Shown in pieces: positions 4,074 to 42,221 of a DNA stretch of 45,557 nt (positions within the stretch are counted from its first letter, which is position 1; each line of letters starts with the position of its first letter). The notes under the pieces are model-generated. The model was given only the letters and a program-made list of their open reading frames with translations. It was not told the DNA's origin and ran no database searches. The stretch is from positions 1 through 45,557 of the forward strand of contig PJAB01000082.1 in the NCBI GenBank assembly GCA_002887195.1, read 5' to 3'. The translations under genes and the position numbers were made by a program. Origin of the DNA: Chrysochromulina parva. Taxonomy: Eukaryota > Haptophyta > Prymnesiales > Chrysochromulinaceae.

Positions 4074-5684
4074 TCAGTGGCAGTCGAATGCTCCATCACC
4101 GATGAACTCCCGGAGCAGCGACGTGGTAGGCACCTTTGCGGTGGACGCCGAGTGGAAGAGGCGAAGCAGGCTGAGCAGACGCACCGCGGCCGCGTACTGC
4201 GCATCGTCGGGCGGCACGGCGGCAAGCAGAGGCTCGACGAGCGGCTTGAGGATGGCCATCTCATACTCATGGGACGAGTTCACGACCATGTCGACCGCGT
4301 CTTGATGAGGGAAGATCCAAGTATGCTCGCCACGGCGTACGTTTGCCCACATGGAGAGCGTCTTCGAGGCTGAGTGGCCGCGGAAGAGGTAGTCGCGGCT
4401 CATGCGGCGTAGCAGTCGGTTGTCCGTCGTCTTGAGCGCGTTCGCCTCATCTAGCTGGAGCGACGAGATCGGCGAGATGTAGACCTTGAAGAGGCGCTTC
4501 GACGGGACCGTCTTGAGGAACTCCGGGTTGAGCGCATGGATCCCCTCGATGACAAGCATCGACTTGTCGACGGGAGCGGGCAGCTTCATCGGAGTGCCCT
4601 CGCCATCGCGAAAGCCCGTCTTCATGTTATACACGGGCGTGCGCACCTCTTCCCCCGCGAGCAGCCGATTGATGTGCTCGCCCACGAGGTCCGAGTCCAT
4701 CGACTCGACGTGGTCGTAGTCCACGTCCGAGCGCAGCTTGCGCGCCTGGTACCGGGGCTGCCGGTCGAGAGGCAGGTAGTAATGGTCTACGGTCAGGGCC
4801 CGGCCGGTGAAGCCCAGGTTGCGAAGGTACATGGTGAGCTTGGTCGCGAACGTAGTCTTGCCCGAGGAGGTGGGGCCGGCGATGCAAACGACGCCCACAC
4901 GGTCCGCGTCGCTGCTGCCCGTGCACCGCGCCGCAATCGCGGAGGCGAGCTCGGCCAGCTTCGCCTCCTGACGAAACTCTGCATGCAAGATGAAGTCGTG
5001 CAGCTCGCGGTTGCACGTCTGCAGCGAGTTGAGCTCGCCCACGCACGACACCTTGTGAGACGCACCCCAGGCAGCGTGGTCATTCGACGCGCTCAGCAGC
5101 GACGTTGAGACGCTCGCCCCCGCGTGGCCAGGGGCGCTGGCGCCCTTTGCGCGCTTGGCCGGTGGGGCGTCGCCACCGTCGCAGGGGCCATACGAGACTA
5201 GGAGCGCGCCATTGTGCAAGCTCAAGACGGGCGGCTCGGCCGCGAGCACGGACGTTTTCGCAGCGAGCGCGCCAAACGCGAGCCTTGAGCAGCTGCCAAG
5301 GGTGTGGACTTCCACAGACTCACTGGAGCGCGAACGAAGGAGGGCCACCGACTGCGCGAGGCCCGCATCGCCAAAATACTTCAAGGCCTCGGCATATGGC
5401 AACGCCTTCTTTGTGATCGGCAAGTCGTCTGCAATGAGCTTCGTGACCCGTGCGCTGATCTGCTCCACTTCCTTAGCCGAGAGCGGTCGGCCTGCACTCG
5501 AAAAGAGGTATGCCCGGCCGACGGTGCGTCCGCCGACCAGGGCCGGCGTCTCCGCGGCGCATGAGACGATGAATCGCAGGGTCGCACGGGTGCTCGCGTC
5601 CTCGTAGATTGATGGCATCGCCTCGCTCGCAGTGTCGCTCGCAGTCTCGGACTTCTTGGCGGGGGTCTTCTTTGCAGGCGGCAT
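4074..5684 (-). CDS. Uridine kinase-like nucleoside kinase with N-terminal tRNA_SAD-like domain
   Basis: Likely phosphorylates a nucleoside with ATP. The start ATG is at 5684 (MPPAKKTPAKK, Lys/Ala-rich tail), 536 residues. The N-terminal half carries a stretch like the second additional domain of threonyl/alanyl-tRNA synthetases (GRPLSAKEVEQISARVTKLI; ALKYFGDAG). The C-terminal half is a phosphoribulokinase/uridine-kinase P-loop domain: Walker A GPTSSGKTTFATKL at about 270, the nucleoside-site stretch TVDHYYLPLDRQP, SDVDYDHVESMD, and the Walker B-like SMLVIEGIHALNPEF, then LLRRMSRDYLFRGHSA. This domain order matches the long nucleoside kinases of bacteria and some protists. A KRAKGASAPGHAG low-complexity stretch separates the two halves. 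Nucleoside specificity cannot be read from sequence. Confidence 0.85.
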   Translation of the reverse strand: MPPAKKTPAKKSETASDTASEAMPSIYEDASTRATLRFIVSCAAETPALVGGRTVGRAYLFSSAGRPLSAKEVEQISARVTKLIADDLPITKKALPYAEALKYFGDAGLAQSVALLRSRSSESVEVHTLGSCSRLAFGALAAKTSVLAAEPPVLSLHNGALLVSYGPCDGGDAPPAKRAKGASAPGHAGASVSTSLLSASNDHAAWGASHKVSCVGELNSLQTCNRELHDFILHAEFRQEAKLAELASAIAARCTGSSDADRVGVVCIAGPTSSGKTTFATKLTMYLRNLGFTGRALTVDHYYLPLDRQPRYQARKLRSDVDYDHVESMDSDLVGEHINRLLAGEEVRTPVYNMKTGFRDGEGTPMKLPAPVDKSMLVIEGIHALNPEFLKTVPSKRLFKVYISPISSLQLDEANALKTTDNRLLRRMSRDYLFRGHSASKTLSMWANVRRGEHTWIFPHQDAVDMVVNSSHEYEMAILKPLVEPLLAAVPPDDAQYAAAVRLLSLLRLFHSASTAKVPTTSLLREFIGDGAFDCH

Positions 5685-5887: not shown

Positions 5888-7760
5888 TCACGAGGACGGC
5901 AGCTCGGTGGCGCTCGGCGCGCTGCCTACGTGCAGCCCTCGAGTGAGCATGTGACCGACCGCGTGCGGCGTCGCAAGCTGCGTGGCGCCGACGAGCAGCC
6001 GATGCTTTGGGTGCTGCGCGCCCAGCTGCCGGAGCTCGCGCAGCTCGGCGAGGGAGATTCCGCCGAGGACGAAGACGACGATCGTGCGCTGGTCTGTGAG
6101 GCGCGCCGTGCGCCTCATCCCAAGCAAGTTGGCGCCGCGCGAGAAGAGCGACCCGATCGACGCCTCGCCCACGCGGCGGAGCTCGGGCATTTCCTCGGAG
6201 CGGAGGGCACGCTCGAGCGTGTGGCGCACGAGGGGCCGGTATACCTAATTAGGGAGAGGGTGGCGCCGTGGTGAGCACTTGCATGCCGAGCGTGTGGCGC
6301 ACGAGGGGACGGTATACCTCCCCTGCCGTCTGGCCCGCGCCGAGCAGCAGCGTCTCCGTGGCCGTACCTAATTAGGGAGAGGCGGGCGCCGTGGTGAGCA
6401 CTTGCATGCCGAGCAGCAGCGTCTCCGTGGCCGTACCCAGGCCATGGCGCGCCGTGGCGAGCGCGTGCAGCCGTTGGAACACGACGCGCAGGGCGCCGTC
6501 GAGGGCCTCCCGCCGAGCTCCAATCTCCGTCGGCGTGAGGGCCTCGATGGGGACGGGCGCCGTGCCGGGCGCGAGGAGGCCGCCCGCGTGCGGGTCGCGC
6601 AGGCACGCTTGGAGCAGCCCCTCGCGTAACCGCTGCTCCTGCTCGCCGAGCGCCGCGCTCGAGACGGCGCTCATCCCTGCGAGGGAGTAGACCATCGCAC
6701 AGAGCGGGAGCAGCTCGGGGACCCCGAGGGGCTGGGTACCGAGGGGCTGGGTACCGAGGGGCGGCGGGCTGGTGGCGCCGGCGGCGGCGCGGGTAGGCGA
6801 GGCGGCGGCGCCGGCGCCGGCGGTGGTACGCACGGGCTTTGCGACCGAATGCGAGCGCGCTGTGAGTGTGATCAGCTCGGAGAAGGCCGCCGCAACCCCC
6901 GCATCCGACGCCGTGTGCTGCAGCAACTTCTGATGGCTGATGAGCGCGGCGCCGGCGCTCGAGACGGCGCCCTTGCCCCCTTCGAGCGCGTCGACGAGCG
7001 CCTCGACTGCACCTAGGATCGGCGTGTGGCGCAGTGCGACGCTCGGCTCGTCGCACAGGGCGCGCAGCATCTCGCGAAGCTTGGGCGGCGTCGGGCGAGC
7101 GGGAAGCGGTATCTCGAGAGCCTCCGACGCATCGGCCACGGCGGCGAGGCTGCGCAGGAGAGTGGTGGGTACATCCTTGGCACGGCGCGTGAGCAACGCA
7201 TCCAGCAGCTCTTCACACCGGGGGTCGACCGGTGCCAGTGCCTGCTGAGCGAGCTCAGAGAGCGGTGGAGGCGGAGGCGGAGGCGGTGGCGGTGGCGGTG
7301 GCGCGGCACGGCGCTCCACGCCCGTGCCTCCACCGCCGCCACCGCCTCCACCTCCACCGCCACCACTCGCTGTGGGGACTGTGGGGACTGTGGGGAGGCC
7401 GAGCATGATCGCATCGAGCGCGTGGTCCGAGTGGAGAGAGGGTGCCACCGCATCGAGCCACCGATCGACCAGCAGCACCGATGCCTCCATGGCGGCTGGC
7501 GCATCCGCGCCGTCGCGGGCACCCAAAGGTCCGTCAGGCGACTGCTGCAGCAGCAACTGACGGGCGACAAGCTGTGAAGAGGCGCCGAGGGCGAAGAGGG
7601 TGGGCTTGAGGTGGGCAGCACGCAGCCAGCCGGCCAGGGCCATCGCAACGCCGCCAAAAGCGCGCTGGCGCCGTGGTGGCAGCGAGGACCACGAGAGCTC
7701 CTCAAGGCGCAAGCGCGCCGCACCACCACCCCCCCCACCACCACCCCCACCGCCACCGCC

Positions 7761-7803
<43 letters not shown>

Positions 7804-8480
7804 TCGCCGGCTCCACCGCCGCCGCCGGCCGTCTCGCCGGCGCCGTCGAGGCTGCCGCTCGTGTCCAGATCGGAGCTCAGGAGCGGCTCCGCGTCCTCGA
7901 TCGGCAGCAAAAAGGCGCCACTGCCGAGCGGGCACAGCTGTGCCGGCAGCTCAAGGTGACTGACCACCACACGCACCGCCGGCACCGGCCGTGCCGGCGA
8001 GCCGCTGGCGCTGGCGGCGGCCTCACAAAGCCATCGGCGCGCCTCCGCCTCGCACGCTTCGTACGCATTGGTGGCCAGGGCGCCCGTCGGCGCCGCGGCC
8101 GTCGCGCCATACTCGCGATGCGCCCTCTCCGAGAAGGTGCACGCGATCGTGCAGTCGGTCAGGCGGAAGCCTGAGTGACAGAGCGAAGTGCGCAGCGCAG
8201 CGTACGCCTCGGGCAGGAAGCTCGAACAGAGCACGACGGCCCTGTCTGTGGAGGACGCGCCCGCGCCCGGCAGCACCGACGGCGTGCCACTGGCGAGCCG
8301 GTCGCCCAGCCGCAAGACGTTGCACACGCCGAGGTCGAGCAGCGCGGGCAGACCGACCGCCCAGGCGAGGGCGCACGCGGCGCGGTCGTCGGCGAAGAGG
8401 ACGGCGCCGTCGAGAGGGAGCTGCGCCAGTGACTTGCGCCAGAGCTGCGCGAGGTTGGCGTCGCCTGTGGCCACCTGCAT
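5888..8480 (-). CDS. Sec1/Munc18-like protein, SCFD2-type, three exons
   Basis: SM-like protein expected to act with SNAREs or tethers in membrane traffic. Exons: 8480-6437, 6367-6318, 6244-5888, giving 816 residues. Exon 1 starts MQVATGDANLAQLW and contains SVLLVDRWLDAVAPSL...DHALDAIM, like the SCFD2 stretch around its 'VDRTLDL' motif. Exon 3 ends with the Sec1 C-terminal hallmark TIVVFVLGGISLAELREL and HRLLVGATQL. Human SCFD2 has 684 residues; the excess is a poly-Gly run (about 223-250), a second Gly run (370-385) and a Pro run (392-406). The two introns (6368-6436 and 6245-6317) are essential to reach the conserved C terminus: without splicing the frame stops at 6372. Both introns carry the same 42-bp element between duplicated exon sequence. 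Confidence 0.82.
6245..6317 (-). repeat. Intron 2 of SCFD2: 42-bp element inside a 31-bp duplication
   Basis: The + strand shows cgagcgtgtggcgcacgagg...gtatac at 6214-6244 and again at 6287-6317 (31 bp, one mismatch). Between them, 6245-6286, sits a 42-bp element starting ctaattagggagagg and ending cacttgcatgc. Spliced on the minus strand, the GT donor lies at the start of the upstream duplicate (GAG|GTATACC) and the acceptor TAATTAG is the end of the element. The 73-bp intron leaves one intact copy of the exon sequence. Confidence 0.85.
6368..6436 (-). repeat. Intron 1 of SCFD2: second copy of the 42-bp element in a perfect 27-bp duplication
   Basis: Positions 6341-6367 and 6410-6436 are identical over 27 bp (cgagcagcagcgtctccgtg...gtac). 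The element at 6368-6409 matches the 6245-6286 copy except for a few bases near its middle. Minus-strand splicing uses the GT of the duplicated exon (CTGG|GTACGG) and the element's TAATTAG acceptor. The 69-bp intron is divisible by three but carries an in-frame TAA, so splicing is required. Confidence 0.87.
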
Positions 8481-10649: not shown

Positions 10650-12457
10650 CTAATTCGTCGTCGATCGCACCTTTGCACGCCGGCGTCGTCGCCCCCGTCC
10701 GCGACCCTTTCCGGGGATCACGGGGGCCGCGTCAGCCTCCTCCGCCGTAACCTCCGCCGGTGCGCGTGCGGCAGGCGTCTCGGAAGCAGAGGCCGCCACT
10801 CGCAAAGAGAAGACTTGGAGGTTCGTCGCGTCCGCGCCCCCGAGCAGAAGCGACATGAGCTTGAACTTGTGCTCCCCGGAGGAGGTGCCCGCGCTGATGT
10901 GGAGATGAACTCGACAACAGCCGTCGGCCTTATCGGCGGCGCGGCGCGCCGGGCGCAGCGGCAGCCGACGCACGTCCGTCACCGACACGCCATCCTTGAT
11001 GTCGTGCGCATCGATCACATCGGGAGTGCACGAGCACCGGCCGTCGCAATGGAGACGCGCACGCCCCATGTGCTCATATGAGCGTAGGAAGCCCAGCCAG
11101 AGCACTTGCGGGGGTTTGGTGCGTGCCCCTTCCGTCGGCCACGGCAGGCAGAGCGAGAGTGACTTGCCAACCCCAACAGCAAGGTAGCCGAGCTTTCCCT
11201 TGCCCCGGCCCTCGTCAGTAAGGTTGAAGCCTCCCAAATCCGAAGCCTCGACGTAACGAGAGAGCTGCTCACCACGCGCGCACACGCTCGACGCCATCGC
11301 GAAGCCCTCGGCGCCGTAGTAGGGCGTCGGCAGCACCACGGCGGCGCTCGCGGCGGCGCTCGCGCCCGACGGCCCCACCAGCGCGTTCGCCGACGTGCCC
11401 GCGGCAGCGCTGACCGACGGCAGCACCACGGCAGCGCTGGCCGTCGCTCCGCGGCAGCCGTCGGCGGTGCTGTCGGCGGTGCTGGCGGCAGCGCCACGAG
11501 CATACGTGGGCGAAAGGAGGCGGTGGAGGATGAGCTGTGCCAGAAAGGTGTGCCCCACACCGTTCGGGTGCTTGCAGTCGTTCATAAACGTCGGGATCGC
11601 GATCACGCCCGCGCGCACCTGATGAGGAAGGTCATCAGAGGTCACCAGAGGTCATCAGAGGTCATCAGAGAGGCATCATCAACGTCGGATCGCCATCACG
11701 CCCGCGCGCGCACCGCCCCAACGAGTGCAGCGCGCATCGAGACGAGCGGAACGTCGTAGTGCCTGCACAAGGCCGCGATCTCGTCCTCGTCGGCGGCGAG
11801 GTTGTCGGGCTTGCCCACGTGGTTGATCTTGCCCATGGTCTGCGCCGCCCATTGCGTCCGATTGCGCGCCATATCCAACGGCCACTTGCGAGACCAGCAC
11901 TTGTCAGTGCGCCCGTCGTGGGGCCGAATAGCGCGCCAGCGGTGCGCGTTTACGACGATGAGCGCGGGCGCGCGCGGGTGGGACAGCAGCTTGCGCAGTA
12001 GCCGCTCAAACGACGCCGGCGAGCGATCCGTGTTCACCGCGTACTCGAGCAGCACGAGCTCGACGTCGGCGGCAAGGTGGTCGTGCACGCAGTGCTCCAT
12101 GTAAGTCGGCCCGGTGCCGGGCACGCCGCCGTTATGGTGTGCATGGCCGCCCGCCACCGGGAAGCGCTTGTTGAGCGCAAACGCCACCTTGCGGTGGTAC
12201 AAGAAATCGGCCGCAGAGCCTGAGCCCGCCGCGTAGCTTGAGCCCGCCGTGATGGAGCCTCCCACGGCGCTCATGCTGACCCTGCGGCCGGCCAAGAGCG
12301 CAGCCCGCACACACGAAAGGGGTGCGTCAATGCCGGCGTGCTCGATGCCACTCGCGACCAGCGACGAGTTGAGCAGCGTGTGAGCCTGAGGCCACACGCT
12401 GCGAAGCATGGCGTCGTCGATCAGGGTGTTGCCCATAGGCTGGGAGCGAACAACCAA
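10650..12457 (-). CDS. SGNH/GDSL-type hydrolase with C-terminal beta-rich domain, two exons
   Basis: Probable ester hydrolase or O-acyl-transfer enzyme acting on glycans or lipids. Exons 12457-11714 and 11618-10650 give about 570 residues; the start may also be the Met seven codons in (MGNTLIDDAML). Block I is SMSAVGGSITAGSS at about residue 60 (Ser nucleophile), then VELVLLEYAVN, and block V at the start of exon 2, NDCKHPNGVGH (Asp-His). The later part, with LCLPWPTEGARTKPPQVLWLGFLRSYEHMG and EHKFKLMSLLLGG, looks like a beta-sandwich appended in algal and plant proteins of this type; the tail is Arg/Gly-rich. No signal peptide is visible at the chosen start, so a 5' exon is possible. It lies head-to-head with the XEG113-like gene. 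Confidence 0.8.
11619..11713 (-). repeat. Intron in the SGNH gene with 37-bp exon duplication and 10-bp satellite
   Basis: The + strand has tcataaacgtcgggatcgcg... at 11582-11618 and a near copy, tcatcaacgtcggatcgcca..., at 11676-11712. Between them run about four copies of aggtcatcag. Minus-strand splicing uses the GT in the upstream duplicate (GGGGCG|GTGCGC) and the acceptor CTCATCAG|GTGCGC, joining ALVGA to VRAGVIAIPTF in frame. Length 95 bp. Confidence 0.83.
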
Positions 12458-32175: not shown

Positions 32176-34416
32176 TTACGCTGAGGAACTAGTCTCAGCT
32201 CCCGCTTTCGTGCTCGAGCTGCCATCCGAGGTGTAGCCGAGGTCTGCGAGCTGCTTCTTCTCATAGGGCTGCATGTACTGGTCCGCCACAAACTTCTGCA
32301 TCACTTTGGGCATGCATTTCCAGACCGTCGGCATCCAGAGCGTGATGCGCAGCGAGAAGACCATCATGAAGATCCACGTAGAGAGGCCGGCGAGGATGCC
32401 GATCTCGATTCTGTACGTGACCGGCTGCACCAGGATGGTGAGCATCGCTGGGATCGACTGCATGTAGTCCATCCAGTCAACATCCTTGACGCCCTCGATC
32501 ATGAAGACGCCCACGAGGATGAGCGCCGGGCCAGTCGCGACTGTGGGGATGGACGCGAAAAAGGGGGCGAGGAAGATGGAGAGGAAGTTGAAGAAGGCGA
32601 TGGTAAGCGCCGTCAGCCCGGTGCGCCCGCCCTCGTAGACGCCGGTCATCGACTCGCCGTACGTCGTGAGAGACGACGTGCCGAGGAGGCCACCGACCAT
32701 CGTGCCGATGCCGTCGGCCATGAAGGCTCCGTAGCAGCCTGGGAAGTTGTCGCCCTTCTCGTTCATCAGGCCGCAGAGGTCCGCGGCCGAGTAGAGGAAC
32801 GCCATCGTGCCGATAAAGTCAATGTACAGGAGCACCAGGAGCGGCGCGCCAAAGTTGTTGAAGGTGAGATCATTGTAGGCCCACGCCACGAAGGTGCCGC
32901 CCGGGATGTCGCCGGCCCAGCACTTGGAGCCTGCGTCGCCGCAGCCGAACGCGCCAAACCAGGGCGTCACGGGGCCCTCCTTGGCCATCGCTCCCTTCGG
33001 AGGCGAGAAGAACTCGATGGGAGACGTGAAGGTCTTGGGGATGCGGCCGGCGCCGCCCAAGCAGCCCTCACCGAAGCCGTCGATCTTGGTGTACGGCGTG
33101 AGGGGGGGAGACCCCCCAAACTCCGGGGACGAGAACGTCGCGCCCATGGCGTTGGTGATCGTCCTGTCAGGATCGACGTAGCTCATGCCCGACCAGCACG
33201 TCGTCGAAGTCATGACCACGCCGAAGCAGGCCGGGTTGAAGCCTCCGTGCATGAGATGGCACGTCTCGGTGCAGCCGCTTGCCACGCTCCCGAGCCCGTT
33301 GCGCCCGTCGCCGTTGCCCTTGAAGCTGAGCGAGCCCATGTGCGTGTGGACGGTGCCGTCGGGGGCGGTGATCGTCCAGTTTCCAAAGGAGTTCATCACG
33401 ACGGACGAGCCAACCCAGGTCGACGTGTAGTAGTCGTCACCGGTGCCCACGCCGGCGACTCCTTTGATGAGCTTCGTGCCGGACTTGCCCACGACGTCGA
33501 AGGCGTTCATGCACGTCGGCTTGGGCATCCCTGGCTCGGTTAGGCCGGTGCCGGAGCCGGGCATGGGGTAGAAGTCTTTGTTGAGCGTCTTGGGGTACTG
33601 CACCTCGCCAAGGCAGCACACCTGCTGGTACGTGAAGGAGGGCGTCTCGACCGCAGCGAGGATCCAGCACGTGAATGTCGAGAGGAGGATGCCGATCATG
33701 ATGGCGCCCTTCACCTTGAGCATGACGAGGGTGGACATGACGAGGAAGAAGAAGAGACCGATCCATGTGACGCCCGCGTGCTCGCCGTTGAGCGGCGCGA
33801 GGTCCACGAGGACCGCCGGGTTATCGCGCGAGAAGATGATGCCATTGCCGGCCTGAAGGCCGATGTGCGCGAGGAAGAGGCCGATGCCAGCCATCGACGC
33901 CTTCATCAACCATTTGGGGAAGATCTTGAAGATCTGGCGGCGCATGTCAGTGAGCGAGATGACGAGGAAGATGAGGCCCTCGATGAACACGGCGAACATC
34001 ACCGGCTTGACGGGTACACTCGTGCCCTTGAAACCGACGACGGTGTACGCAAAGTAGGCGTTCGTGCCCATGCCCGGAAAGACGCCAAAGGGCAGGTTGG
34101 CCCAGAACGCCATGATGAGCGTGGCGATGCACGAGGACATGGCCGTCGCGAACACCAGCCCATCAAAGTTGAGGCCGGTCACGCTGAGGATGTTCGGGTT
34201 CACCGCCATGATGTAGCAGCTCGTCAAATATGTCGTGATGCCCGCACGGATCTCGGTGGTCAAGTTAGAGCCGCGTTCGGTCACCTTGAAGTACTTGTCC
34301 CAATAGGTGCCCATGAACTTGTTGTCCAGAGGGTTGTTCTTGCGGCCCGCGTGGCCCCTGGCGTCCGCCTTGCCGAAAGAAGCGCCGTCAGTCACGACCT
34401 TGACCGCCGCCGCCAT
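32176..34416 (-). CDS. AzgA-type purine permease (NCS2 group) with large Cys-rich loop
   Basis: Proton-coupled uptake of adenine, guanine or hypoxanthine across the plasma membrane is the known role of AzgA proteins. Start ATG at 34416 (MAAAVKVVTDG); 746 residues against about 430-580 in the family. The N-terminal hallmark is FKVTERGSNLTTEIRAGITT and YIMAVNPNIL; then PFGVFPGMGTNAYFAY, GTMVGGLLGTSSLTTYGES with TGVYEGGRTGLTAL, the family signature, and VDWMDYMQSIPAMLTILVQP near the end. Residues about 258-517 form an inserted hydrophilic loop with some ten Cys (CC at its start, C...C pairs throughout), Gly-rich and likely extracellular and disulfide-bonded. The gene is divergent from the guanine deaminase-APRT fusion, which supports purine-base transport. 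Confidence 0.92.
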   Translation of the reverse strand: MAAAVKVVTDGASFGKADARGHAGRKNNPLDNKFMGTYWDKYFKVTERGSNLTTEIRAGITTYLTSCYIMAVNPNILSVTGLNFDGLVFATAMSSCIATLIMAFWANLPFGVFPGMGTNAYFAYTVVGFKGTSVPVKPVMFAVFIEGLIFLVISLTDMRRQIFKIFPKWLMKASMAGIGLFLAHIGLQAGNGIIFSRDNPAVLVDLAPLNGEHAGVTWIGLFFFLVMSTLVMLKVKGAIMIGILLSTFTCWILAAVETPSFTYQQVCCLGEVQYPKTLNKDFYPMPGSGTGLTEPGMPKPTCMNAFDVVGKSGTKLIKGVAGVGTGDDYYTSTWVGSSVVMNSFGNWTITAPDGTVHTHMGSLSFKGNGDGRNGLGSVASGCTETCHLMHGGFNPACFGVVMTSTTCWSGMSYVDPDRTITNAMGATFSSPEFGGSPPLTPYTKIDGFGEGCLGGAGRIPKTFTSPIEFFSPPKGAMAKEGPVTPWFGAFGCGDAGSKCWAGDIPGGTFVAWAYNDLTFNNFGAPLLVLLYIDFIGTMAFLYSAADLCGLMNEKGDNFPGCYGAFMADGIGTMVGGLLGTSSLTTYGESMTGVYEGGRTGLTALTIAFFNFLSIFLAPFFASIPTVATGPALILVGVFMIEGVKDVDWMDYMQSIPAMLTILVQPVTYRIEIGILAGLSTWIFMMVFSLRITLWMPTVWKCMPKVMQKFVADQYMQPYEKKQLADLGYTSDGSSSTKAGAETSSSA

Positions 34417-34612
34417 GGTGAGGAGGGGTACTGCGAGCAAAAGGAAGCACTTTTCGATTCGATCGCACGATAAACGCCGAGATTCCTTCTTGGACGGACC
34501 GCAAAGGATACCTGCGGACCTACGTGACCTCCTCTGCCATGGTGAGAATGGGGGGGTACGCTACGTGAAGAAAAGTCGCTACTTTCGTTGGTTTGCATAA
34601 AGCGCCGAGATC
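34417..34612. promoter_or_regulatory. Shared promoter of the purine permease and GDA-APRT genes
   Basis: 196 bp between divergent start codons. It contains two loosely similar halves: gccatggtgaggagggg (34412) and gccatggtgagaatggggg (34536), each followed about 60-70 bp later by gccgaga and a ggacggaccgcaa/ggaccgtccgcaa type motif (34494, 34627). One half overlaps each start. Coordinated expression is inferred. Confidence 0.5.
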
Positions 34613-39967: not shown

Positions 39968-42221
39968 ATGCAGAGCCATTTGAAGGCCTTCTCCATACAC
40001 TGTGATGCTTCTCCCTCCGATCGCAGGCCGCGCCGCGTGGCCATCCCGGTGACACCGACGGGAGAGCGTGGCCGCTCGCTCCAGGCCCACGCAGCGGAGA
40101 CGTGGTTGCGCCACGTGGGCGTCTCGCCGGTCGTCAAGGAGCGCGGCTCGTTGCCCAAGCCACGCCGGGCGCCACTGTCGGCGAGCTCGGCCAACGGCCG
40201 CCTAAGCAGCAGCCGACCGCCGACCACCGCGATCATCGGCAAGGCTCCGACCCTCGTCGTGCCCTCGCCCTCGAAGAACGGGGAGCTCGTCGTCCAGTCG
40301 CCGGCCGATGTCATCGAGGAAGCCATCAACGAGGCGGATGCGATCATCGAGGATGCGATCAACGAAGCTGAGACGGAGGTCTTCGAGCTCGAGCTCCAGC
40401 TGCGCAAGGAGCGCGGCGCGCGCGAGCAGGCCGAGGCCGCGCTCGAGGCGCGCCTCAGCATGTCGCCTCCGACGGCCGCCCCGCTCGCAGGCACGCCTCG
40501 GGCCGATGCCTTGCGGGCCATCGCCACGAGCGAGGCTGCCGCACAGACGCTGCCCGTTGCCTTGCCGGTCCTCGCGCGAGCGCTCCACCCAAGCGTGCTC
40601 GCGTCGCCTGTGGAAGTGCTCCTCGCTCGGCCGGTCGTGCCGCCGGCGACACACGAGGCGTGCTGCCAGACGGACGAAGCCGTTGACGAAGCCGTTGACG
40701 AAGCCGTTGCCACATCGCCGCCGGCCGCCCGTGCGCCTGTGGCTGCCGCCGCGCCCGCGCCCGATTCGGCGCATGAGCGTCGGCTCCGAATCGCCACGTC
40801 GATGGGGGCGACCTTGGGGCCGGCGGACAGCATGCAAGTGCTCACTACGGCGGACAGCCACGAGACCCAAGAGGCTTTCCGATTTGGAAAGGGCGGTCTC
40901 ACTCCCGATTTGGAAAGGGGGAAGGGCGGTCCCGATTGGGAAAGGGAGAAGGGCGATCTCACTCCCGACTCGGCGCACGAGCGTCGCCTGCGGATCGCGG
41001 CTTCCTTTTTTGGCAGTGGGAAGAAGATGTTCAGCACGCCGCCGGTGCCGCCGACGCCACCGCCGCCGACGCCACCGCCACCGCTCTCCCCTGGGCTGCA
41101 CCGCCACGGCGCGCACGACGCGAGCGGTGGAGCTGCCCATGCGGCCTGCATGCCGAAGGCCGATTGCATGCAAGGCCGACTGCATGCATCCATCTGCGAG
41201 GGAGCTGCCGACCACTTGGCCTCCATCGACGCCGACGCCCCCATCGCCGCCGAGGCCCCCATCACCGCCGAGGCCCCCATCACCGCCGCGTCACCGCCTT
41301 CACGGCTACCGGTCGTGCGCGTGCTGGGCGCATGCAATCGACCGCTTGCCCCCACCACCGGCCGCGCGCGCGTCGTCGTGGTACGCGGAGCGGCGCGGCC
41401 CTCCAAGATCCCCACACCGCGGCGCGCCGTGCCGAGCACGCGTGAGACAGCCTGCAGTCCCCACGTTCCCCACATCCACGTGCCGCCGCACACGCACAGC
41501 GCCGTAGCGAGCGCGAGCGCGACCGTGGGTGCTCGCCTTTGGGGCGATCTGAACTGCGAGATCGGATCCCCGCTGCTGCTCAGCCCGATGGGAGAGGGCG
41601 TTGAGCCGAGCTCGATCGAGCTCGGCTTTGCGGCTCTGCGTCGCGAGATCGCCGAGACGATGGCGGCCTTTCATCAGGTTTCGTCGGGTTCGTCGGGTTC
41701 GTCGCCAGTGGTCGACCACTCTTCGCCAAAGCGCGCCACTTCAGATGCCGCCACGGACGCCACCGCCCCCGCCTCCGCCTCATCGACGGCACCGGCTGGG
41801 GCTGGGGCTGGGGCTGGGCGGCTGGCTACCCTCGCTGCGGAGCGCGCGGCGGGCGAGCGCCGCTTGCGTGGCGTCGAGCTCGCGCGAGATCGAGATCGTG
41901 CAAGGTGCGAGCGCCTGATCGCCTCTCTGATCGCCTCTCTGATCACTTCTCTGAGTGCCGCTGATTGCCTCCATCATCAGGTACGAGCGCCGCATCAAGG
42001 AGCTTGAAGCGATGGTGGCGGCGCTCGAAGGGCACCACGTGGACGTTTCTTTGGGCACTCCCGCGCTCGCCACGACGCTTGCCTCTCCCTCCGAGCGAGA
42101 GAGCGTCGTGCTGGGCGACGTGAGCCCTGCACAACACACGACGGCCGCCGGCCCGAGGACGGTGCTGCCTTCGCGTCGGCTGGAGCTGCTGCCCTCGCCG
42201 GAGCCGCCTTCGCTAGACTGA
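39968..42221 (+). CDS. Hypothetical coiled-coil protein, two exons
   Basis: Not recognised. ATG at 39968 (MQSHLKAFSIHCD); exons 39968-41904 and 41981-42221 give 725 residues. Residues about 110-165 are helical and acidic (VIEEAINEADAIIEDAINEA; TEVFELELQLRKERGA), followed by Ala/Pro-rich linkers with SAHERRLRIA appearing twice, a Pro run (about 358-375) and a C-terminal helix restored by splicing: AERAAGERRLRGVELARDRD, RAR|YERRIKELEAMVAALEG. Composition and coiled coils resemble the divergent neighbour at 37800-39752. A role in the same structure is a guess. Confidence 0.65.
40761..41004 (+). repeat. 204-bp-period direct repeat inside the coiled-coil gene
   Basis: ccgattcggcgcatgagcgt... at 40761-40800 and ccgactcggcgcacgagcgt... 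at 40965-41004 are similar and encode SAHERRLRIA twice. The spacer contains three gatt(t)gggaaaggg-type units. The 204-bp spacing keeps the frame, so this is either an in-frame duplication or an unspliced intron-like insertion. Confidence 0.65.
41905..41980 (+). repeat. Intron with 13-bp exon duplication and 12-bp satellite
   Basis: aggtgcgagcgcc (from 41903) at the donor recurs as aggtacgagcgcc (from 41979) at the acceptor. The interior has two and a half units of ctgatcgcctct and ends CATCATCAG. Donor GT lies in the upstream duplicate; 76 bp. Confidence 0.85.

Follow-up and report, generated by a model that had tools for sequence, protein, structure and literature searches.

A large introner family that probably moves as the 3′ half of an intron only, the donor apparently being supplied by long target duplications

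Two predicted introns of like build in a Sec1-family gene

The window analysed here is a 45,557-nucleotide stretch of DNA (contig C82 of a 45-Mb assembly of 2,199 contigs) with a GC content of approximately 65 %, as in the loci analysed. On its minus strand lies a gene predicted to encode a Sec1-family protein of 816 amino acids once two introns are removed (5888..8480, the end coordinate being derived by adding back 142 intron bases). This gene holds two 50-nt copies, 6242-6291 and 6365-6414, which are 96 % alike and whose 2 mismatches both fall inside a 42-bp element. The two copies of the element (6368..6409 and 6245..6286, minus strand, 2 differences) lie where a preliminary description of this DNA had placed them. 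The flanking direct repeats that it gave as a perfect 27 bp and as 31 bp with one mismatch were likewise recovered, reaching 30 nt with flanking matches (6339-6368/6408-6437, perfect) and, 2 nt longer, 33 nt (6214-6246/6287-6319, one mismatch).

Predicted intron 1 (6368..6436, 69 nt, minus strand) takes its donor GTACGG from duplicated exon sequence and its acceptor CCCTAATTAG from the first element copy, which consists of the core GCATGCAAGTGCTCACCACGGCGCC, pyrimidines and TAATTAG. Its 27-bp target duplication has an intronic copy at 6410..6436 and an exonic copy at 6341..6367, the latter forming the start of the 50-nt exon 2 (6318..6367) that separates the two introns. Predicted intron 2 (6245..6317, 73 nt, minus strand) has the donor GTATAC from duplicated exon sequence, the same acceptor, an intronic copy of the 31-bp duplication at 6287..6317 (one mismatch) and the exonic copy at 6214..6244, where exon 3 starts. 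Read on the coding strand each unit runs exon, GT...duplicate, GCATGCAAGTGCTCACCACGGCGCC with pyrimidines and CCCTAATTAG, GT...duplicate, and the duplicate makes up 27 of the 69 bases of intron 1 and 31 of the 73 of intron 2.

The unspliced ORF (6372-8480) terminates at the TAA of the element and has no Pfam match. With both introns (69 + 73 nt) taken out the three exons fuse into 816 codons open from the ATG, and only this spliced protein matches the Sec1 family (PF00995, E = 8.1e-9, residues 701-792). The match follows directly after junction 2, which places exon 3 in frame, the domain itself lying downstream of the junction. Residues 430-816 align with nine homologues at a coverage of 96-97 % in eight and 90 % in one, the best named being from Prymnesium parvum (46 %), and the alignment is continuous across both junctions (GEVYRPL at junction 2) apart from one extra residue at or near junction 1 that is absent from all nine. 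The earlier proposal that the donor comes from the upstream duplicate and the acceptor from the element is supported in that predicted splicing restores a conserved protein. Near-identity of the two copies suggests recent activity of the element. A search of the assembly with the joined flanks, as an empty site of this gene would read, matched only the window contig itself.

Anatomy and abundance of the element

A genome-wide search for the element with mismatches had been proposed. Carried out with its 22-nt core at up to 3 mismatches it returned 1,811 matches (904 + 907) in the assembly against 0 for the reversed control, a pattern that is beyond chance. At its simplest the unit is the 25-bp core GCATGCAAGTGCTCACCACGGCGCC; as a rule a pyrimidine tract and either CACAG or TAATTAG come after it, bringing the total to about 42 bp. 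Host sequence, mostly 15-40 bp of it, stands in duplicate on the two sides of this unit of 25-42 bases. CTCAC within the core would fit a branch site. The sub-type found in the gene above (core, up to 20 bases, TAATTAG) has 10 copies genome-wide, 9 of which continue with GT, and the form ending in CACAG at the same spacing occurs at 343 sites, GT following at 292.

Our sample comprised 111 core copies at up to 4 mismatches and with complete flanks; copies short of 120/150 flank bases were dropped. Another core lies in the flanks of 40 of these (referred to as arrays), among them one of the two copies in the Sec1-family gene, and 72 of the 111 end in an acceptor motif. The sequence 5′ of the core mostly differs between copies and repeats what comes after the acceptor. 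In the loci analysed the core has sharp ends and truncation within it is rare, 92 of 102 hits of the 3′ core seed retaining at least 9 of 11 upstream bases and 97 of 101 hits in the reciprocal test retaining the other half. The core ends are two unrelated 6-bp palindromes; by eye no terminal inverted repeat was seen on the 42-bp unit, none joining GCATGC to CACAG or TAATTAG. An Rfam search of the window gave nothing reaching the gathering score, and predicted folding of the core and of the element was no more stable than that of shuffled sequences.

Tandem [exon duplicate + core] arrays of up to five units, with periods of about 38-90 bp and mostly finishing in an acceptor motif, were seen at L036, L052, L055, L056, L022 and L054. 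Two introner introns, L039 (minus 4345) and L044 (minus 4986), seemingly have GC-AG boundaries, the duplicate beginning with GC.

Long duplications at the acceptor-bearing copies

To score the duplications we anchored them at the start of exon 2 and took the 99th percentile of swapped pairs as the null, a conservative threshold as some same-contig pairs were included. This anchored test replaced an earlier alignment null and random-position control, both inflated by tandem repeats and same-locus pairs. An anchored duplicate above the null accompanies 51 of the 72 acceptor-bearing copies (41 of 51 singletons, 10 of 21 in arrays) with a median of 27 bp, in agreement with the expectation that copies sit in introns bordered by 20-35-bp duplications, and GT begins 43 of these 51 introns. 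The remaining 21 comprise 11 copies in arrays, one of a mirror type described below and nine unexplained or decayed.

The 41 duplicate-bearing singleton introns measure 60-109 nt, and their donors precede the core by 23-69 nt. When the alignment is left unanchored, the downstream duplicate starts between -5 and +1 of the base after AG in 34 of the 39 acceptor-bearing singletons scoring at least 14. Duplication lengths vary among singletons from 11 to 39 bp. The unusually long duplications that had been claimed are frequent, measuring 27-39 bp in 13 singletons in which the duplicate lies no more than 3 bases from the core; shorter ones occur together with filler before the core. Ten singletons combine a perfect 22-nt core with a perfect duplicate of at least 15 bp, and the identity of the duplicates is uncorrelated with the divergence of the core (Spearman 0.00).

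Evidence for splicing

Predicted intron removal gives continuous Pfam domains over eight introner junctions in six other genes. These include a bromodomain (L041), XRN_N (L008), GH127 (L007) and gelsolin (L027), each across one junction, and ZIP (L039) and the myosin head (L005), each across two introns. The peptides were seven chosen by eye from the 41 introns as recognisable, the seventh (L056) having no Pfam match; six of the eight junction positions were computed and the two in myosin placed by eye. Retention would bring a stop or frameshift in 30 of the 41 singleton introns, taken in the frame with the longest spliced ORF, and their lengths divide 12/11/18 between residues 0, 1 and 2 modulo 3. 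From this continuity of the proteins we infer splicing at the GT of the upstream duplicate and the AG of the element.

A second, unrelated intron family

Scanning the loci without the core revealed further introns of like build. This second family has TGATTGCCTC-like bodies ending in CYTCATCAG and no sequence kinship to the core family. At CYTCATCAG acceptors lacking the core (53 sites), GT comes next in 27 and an exon-2-anchored duplicate exceeds the 99 % null in 21 (median 25 bp); GT starts 14 of these 21 introns, a few of which look like minisatellite or have odd lengths (50, 200 nt). The motif GATTGCCTCCCTCATCAGGT has 1,456 matches (776 + 680) at up to 1 mismatch, not each of which need be an intron, against 0 for its control. 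The acceptor-site scan also identified a probable member in the window (11619..11711, minus strand, coordinates converted by hand from the reverse-complement numbering, 33939), which ends in CTTCCTCATCAG and carries a 23/25 duplicate of the start of the next exon; further examples lie in L057, L052, L023, L045, L043 and other loci. A general scan for AG/GT duplications without the core found 22, against 0-37 in dinucleotide controls, which is no enrichment, so the case for a second family is built on the CYTCATCAG-defined set.

Tandem runs of a 10-11-bp minisatellite (GTCATCAGAG / CTCTGATGAC and variants) in L005, L008, L042, L045, L049 and L054 resemble the bodies of second-family introns.

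Copies without an acceptor and a mirror type

A third core copy in the window (40830..40851, plus strand, one mismatch) is without splice signals. It has 11-bp repeats at 40821-40831/40848-40858, amounts to a net insertion of 27 bp (9 codons) and is open in the ORF 39968-42007, neither of the two ORFs that cover it having a Pfam match. Eleven such acceptor-less copies, each with a duplicate on both sides of the core, have net insertions of 27, 42, 45, 45, 63, 69, 69, 75, 78/81, 50/51 and 88 bp, nine being multiples of three (binomial 0.0014, for copies chosen by eye after the lengths had been computed). Five of the eleven repeats are not above the 99 % null of the earlier alignment (18); of the six that are, five give multiples of three (p ~0.018, by hand). 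L046 (50 or 51) and L057-5911 (88) were scored as failures, and the copy in the window by its 11-bp repeat (27) and not by a distant one (204). Left out were the mirror introns L011, L030, L058+ and L014+, arrays such as L023+ (period 90), and copies with a best repeat that is either weak or distant from the core (L005-640, L038, L015-838, both in L049, and L058-3905). Duplicates of 14-20 bp were found among the acceptor-less copies and are also the weaker alignments. Acceptor-less copies are found within long open frames, whichever way they face (13 places, open frames being common in GC-rich DNA), and the likeliest reading is that copies persist in putatively coding exons as in-frame peptides when they are unspliceable.

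A mirror sub-family, with GTACGTTGATTGCCACTGATGACCTGCCTT before the core, has 104 matches (55 + 49) and carries a donor instead of an acceptor. In L011, L014+ and L030 the AG is taken from a duplicate of the end of the upstream exon, which spans 28 bp in L011 and 17 bp in L014. In a haptophyte as well, the Chrysochromulina sp. Tara MAG, an introner brings its own 5′ splice site and recruits the 3′ one, there with a 4-bp duplication (PMC9860276).

A proposed mobile half-intron

Copies share only the 3′ half of the intron, the acceptor lies within the unit and the duplicate stands ahead of the core, so that the mobile unit looks like half an intron. We put at roughly 0.75 the probability that these copies form a large introner family in which that 3′ half alone is mobile, and the target duplication looks like the source of donor and spacing. 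The upstream host copy, beginning with GT, would form the 5′ half with the donor, as protein continuity implies, and core, pyrimidines and AG would form the 3′ half; insertion would be nearly silent because splicing leaves one intact exon copy. As a 42-bp unit is too short for an intron, survivors would need a duplicate, with or without filler, that places the donor at the distances given above, and selection for a minimum intron length may explain why introns of 60-109 nt are those that survive. The lengths of the duplicates fit such selection but do not prove it.

As a class of mechanism we moderately favour copy-and-paste at staggered breaks, in which the unit would enter a double-strand opening with a stagger of about 25-40 nt, fill-in would create the duplication and short microhomology would assist at the GCATGC end. 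Among the singletons with a gap of at most 1, 5 of 10 show 5′-junction microhomology of at least 2 nt with GC(ATGC), versus 12.8 % of control positions. Sequence ahead of the core is shared by copies on different contigs (CCTGCCTT, GGCAACTCA and GTCTGATT groups). There are 32 cross-contig pairs with at least 7 bases in common, where control offsets give 2-6, and the CCTGCCTT group accounts for most of these pairs. Only five reverse transcriptase (RVT_1) matches were found in the assembly, at 29.7-34.2 bits with a cut-off of 29.6, which does not favour a LINE partner, and no shared or A-rich 3′ tail was seen by eye on the element.

At L043 the sequence ahead of the core (GGTGGAGTCTGATT) is similar to the duplicate plus filler at L022, a locus on a different contig, as though the unit had brought a piece of its source intron with it.

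Among other origins, excised intron RNA, or its 3′ part, might be reverse-transcribed from its exact 3′ end (AG) into staggered nicks in the manner of SINEs and LINEs. Target-primed reverse transcription yields duplications of variable length. Such variation is found here, the unrelated core and TGATTGCCTC/CYTCATCAG families both end at an AG lying directly against the duplicate, and the CCTGCCTT, GGCAACTCA and GTCTGATT groups extend across contigs. Selection for spliceability alone could however explain the exact AG boundary, the 5′ end of the core is sharp and rarely truncated internally in the loci analysed, acceptor-less copies ending GGCGCC and a mirror type with a fixed GT exist, and reverse-transcriptase matches are few; we regard this origin as rather doubtful.

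Template switching or staggered-break repair that reuses existing intron copies as filler would need no dedicated element and would account for variable, imperfect duplications, for 5′-junction microhomology and for the tandem [duplicate + core] arrays (40 of 111 copies with another core in their flanks). It has a parallel in the Daphnia neointrons, with staggered-break repeats of 4-12 bp (PMC4202315). Filler from staggered breaks would be of arbitrary origin, whereas the sequence inserted here is the same element, and some 1,800 occurrences of one unit, with ends that are sharp in the loci analysed, are not expected of random repair, making such an origin unlikely.

A classical non-autonomous DNA transposon, that is a MITE-type introner, would fit the sharp ends and the fact that acceptor-less copies face either way with respect to the longest open frames. 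MITEs are marked by target duplications of fixed length; those of the singletons vary, as in SINEs and LINEs, and by eye no terminal inverted repeat was seen; a MITE is improbable. Ordinary minisatellite or tandem exon duplication in a repetitive genome, involving no intron gain, is very improbable even though tandem repeats abound and AG/GT duplications without the core do not exceed dinucleotide controls (22 vs 0-37), given that with the core they number 31 against 0-13 in every control pair, that 51 of 72 copies exceed the swapped-pair null and that protein domains continue over the junctions.

More tentatively, and in our view with the odds somewhat against it, the half-intron proposed for the core family could be one case of a general mechanism by which any ready-made 3′ half (branch site, pyrimidines, AG) is pasted into a staggered break. 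The machinery would not be bound to one element sequence; 3′ halves might be copied from excised introns, a target duplication of 25-40 bp would become the 5′ half, and unspliceable copies would stay as in-frame peptide insertions. If true, such introns would be invisible to screens demanding similarity at both ends.

Relation to known introners

This introner family is real and abundant, and the roles of element and target duplication are unusually distinct in it. Its 1,811 core matches represent the many near-identical dispersed copies typical of introners, and introns appear to be created precisely, judging from the 51 of 72 duplicates and the continuous domains, on predicted splicing and with one extra residue in the Sec1-family protein. 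In a survey of 3,325 genomes, introner repeats of earlier families measure 3-9 bp and either splice site is recruited from them, and most introner families leave mRNA length unchanged (PMC9860276); the median of 27 bp found here lies outside the 3-9 bp range of introner target-site duplications. Introners of Symbiodinium microadriaticum (Gozashti et al. 2022) are likewise dispersed elements that make introns with their own 3′ splice site and a 5′ site from the duplication, but theirs have 4-bp duplications and terminal inverted repeats, in contrast to the mostly 15-40 bp here (PMC9860276). The survey filter demands similarity near both intron boundaries, so that both ends are alike in the Symbiodinium families, whereas only the 3′ half is common in the present one, the upstream part being host duplicate or filler (PMC9860276); this is a detection filter and not a biological definition.

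In Daphnia neointrons, too, the adjacent exon is repeated directly at the distal end of the intron, but over 4-12 bp and, as far as the available part goes, with no dispersed element family apparent (PMC4202315). Repeated introns with direct repeats are known from Amoebophrya, where the direct repeats are 3-5 nt and accompanied by inverted repeats of 8-20 nt, unlike here (PMC7789003). A published case has a duplicated exon piece giving the donor, as here, but its acceptor half is a duplicated parental intron of the same gene, whereas in the present family it comes from a dispersed element. In a set of 213 introns drawn from various classes, the borders are reported to be accompanied by direct repeats of 4-30 bp, with a mean of 11.4 bp (PMC11782384). 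Duplications of comparable length at introners were not found in a partial search of the open-access introner and intron-gain literature.

The origin of introns is a long-standing question, and the family displays the product of a gain event: a small acceptor half together with a host duplication long enough for donor and spacing. That would account for the nearly silent creation of a splice-competent intron by a unit of 42 bp. Since the survey filter needs similarity at both intron ends such families would probably be missed, and intron gain by mobile sequences may therefore be under-counted. Through the copies apparently retained in exons in frame, intron gain and protein insertion would be linked as effects of one element.

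Host lineage and database matches

Besides the Sec1-family protein a second protein has its best named match in Prymnesium parvum (74 %), and by their named homologues two of the three proteins compared point to a prymnesiophyte haptophyte. A dinoflagellate origin was set aside given these two best matches and the absence of any match to the dinoflagellate spliced leader at up to 2 mismatches in the assembly.

An exact core was found in one IMG/VR contig, L059 (IMGVR_UViG_3300027760_000958, 4495-4516), at its very end, and none in GTDB contigs, records near the genome of the window being possibly missing from both searches. In L059 the perfect core is followed by CCCACCACAG and then GTGAG and is joined to bacterial- or phage-looking sequence; carriage of the core by a virus was rejected, this sole contig probably being a chimeric assembly.

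The third protein, a purine permease encoded at 32176-34440 of the window, has dinoflagellate AZG1 proteins as its best named relatives (~55 %), and its presence amid haptophyte-like genes possibly reflects gene exchange between the two groups.
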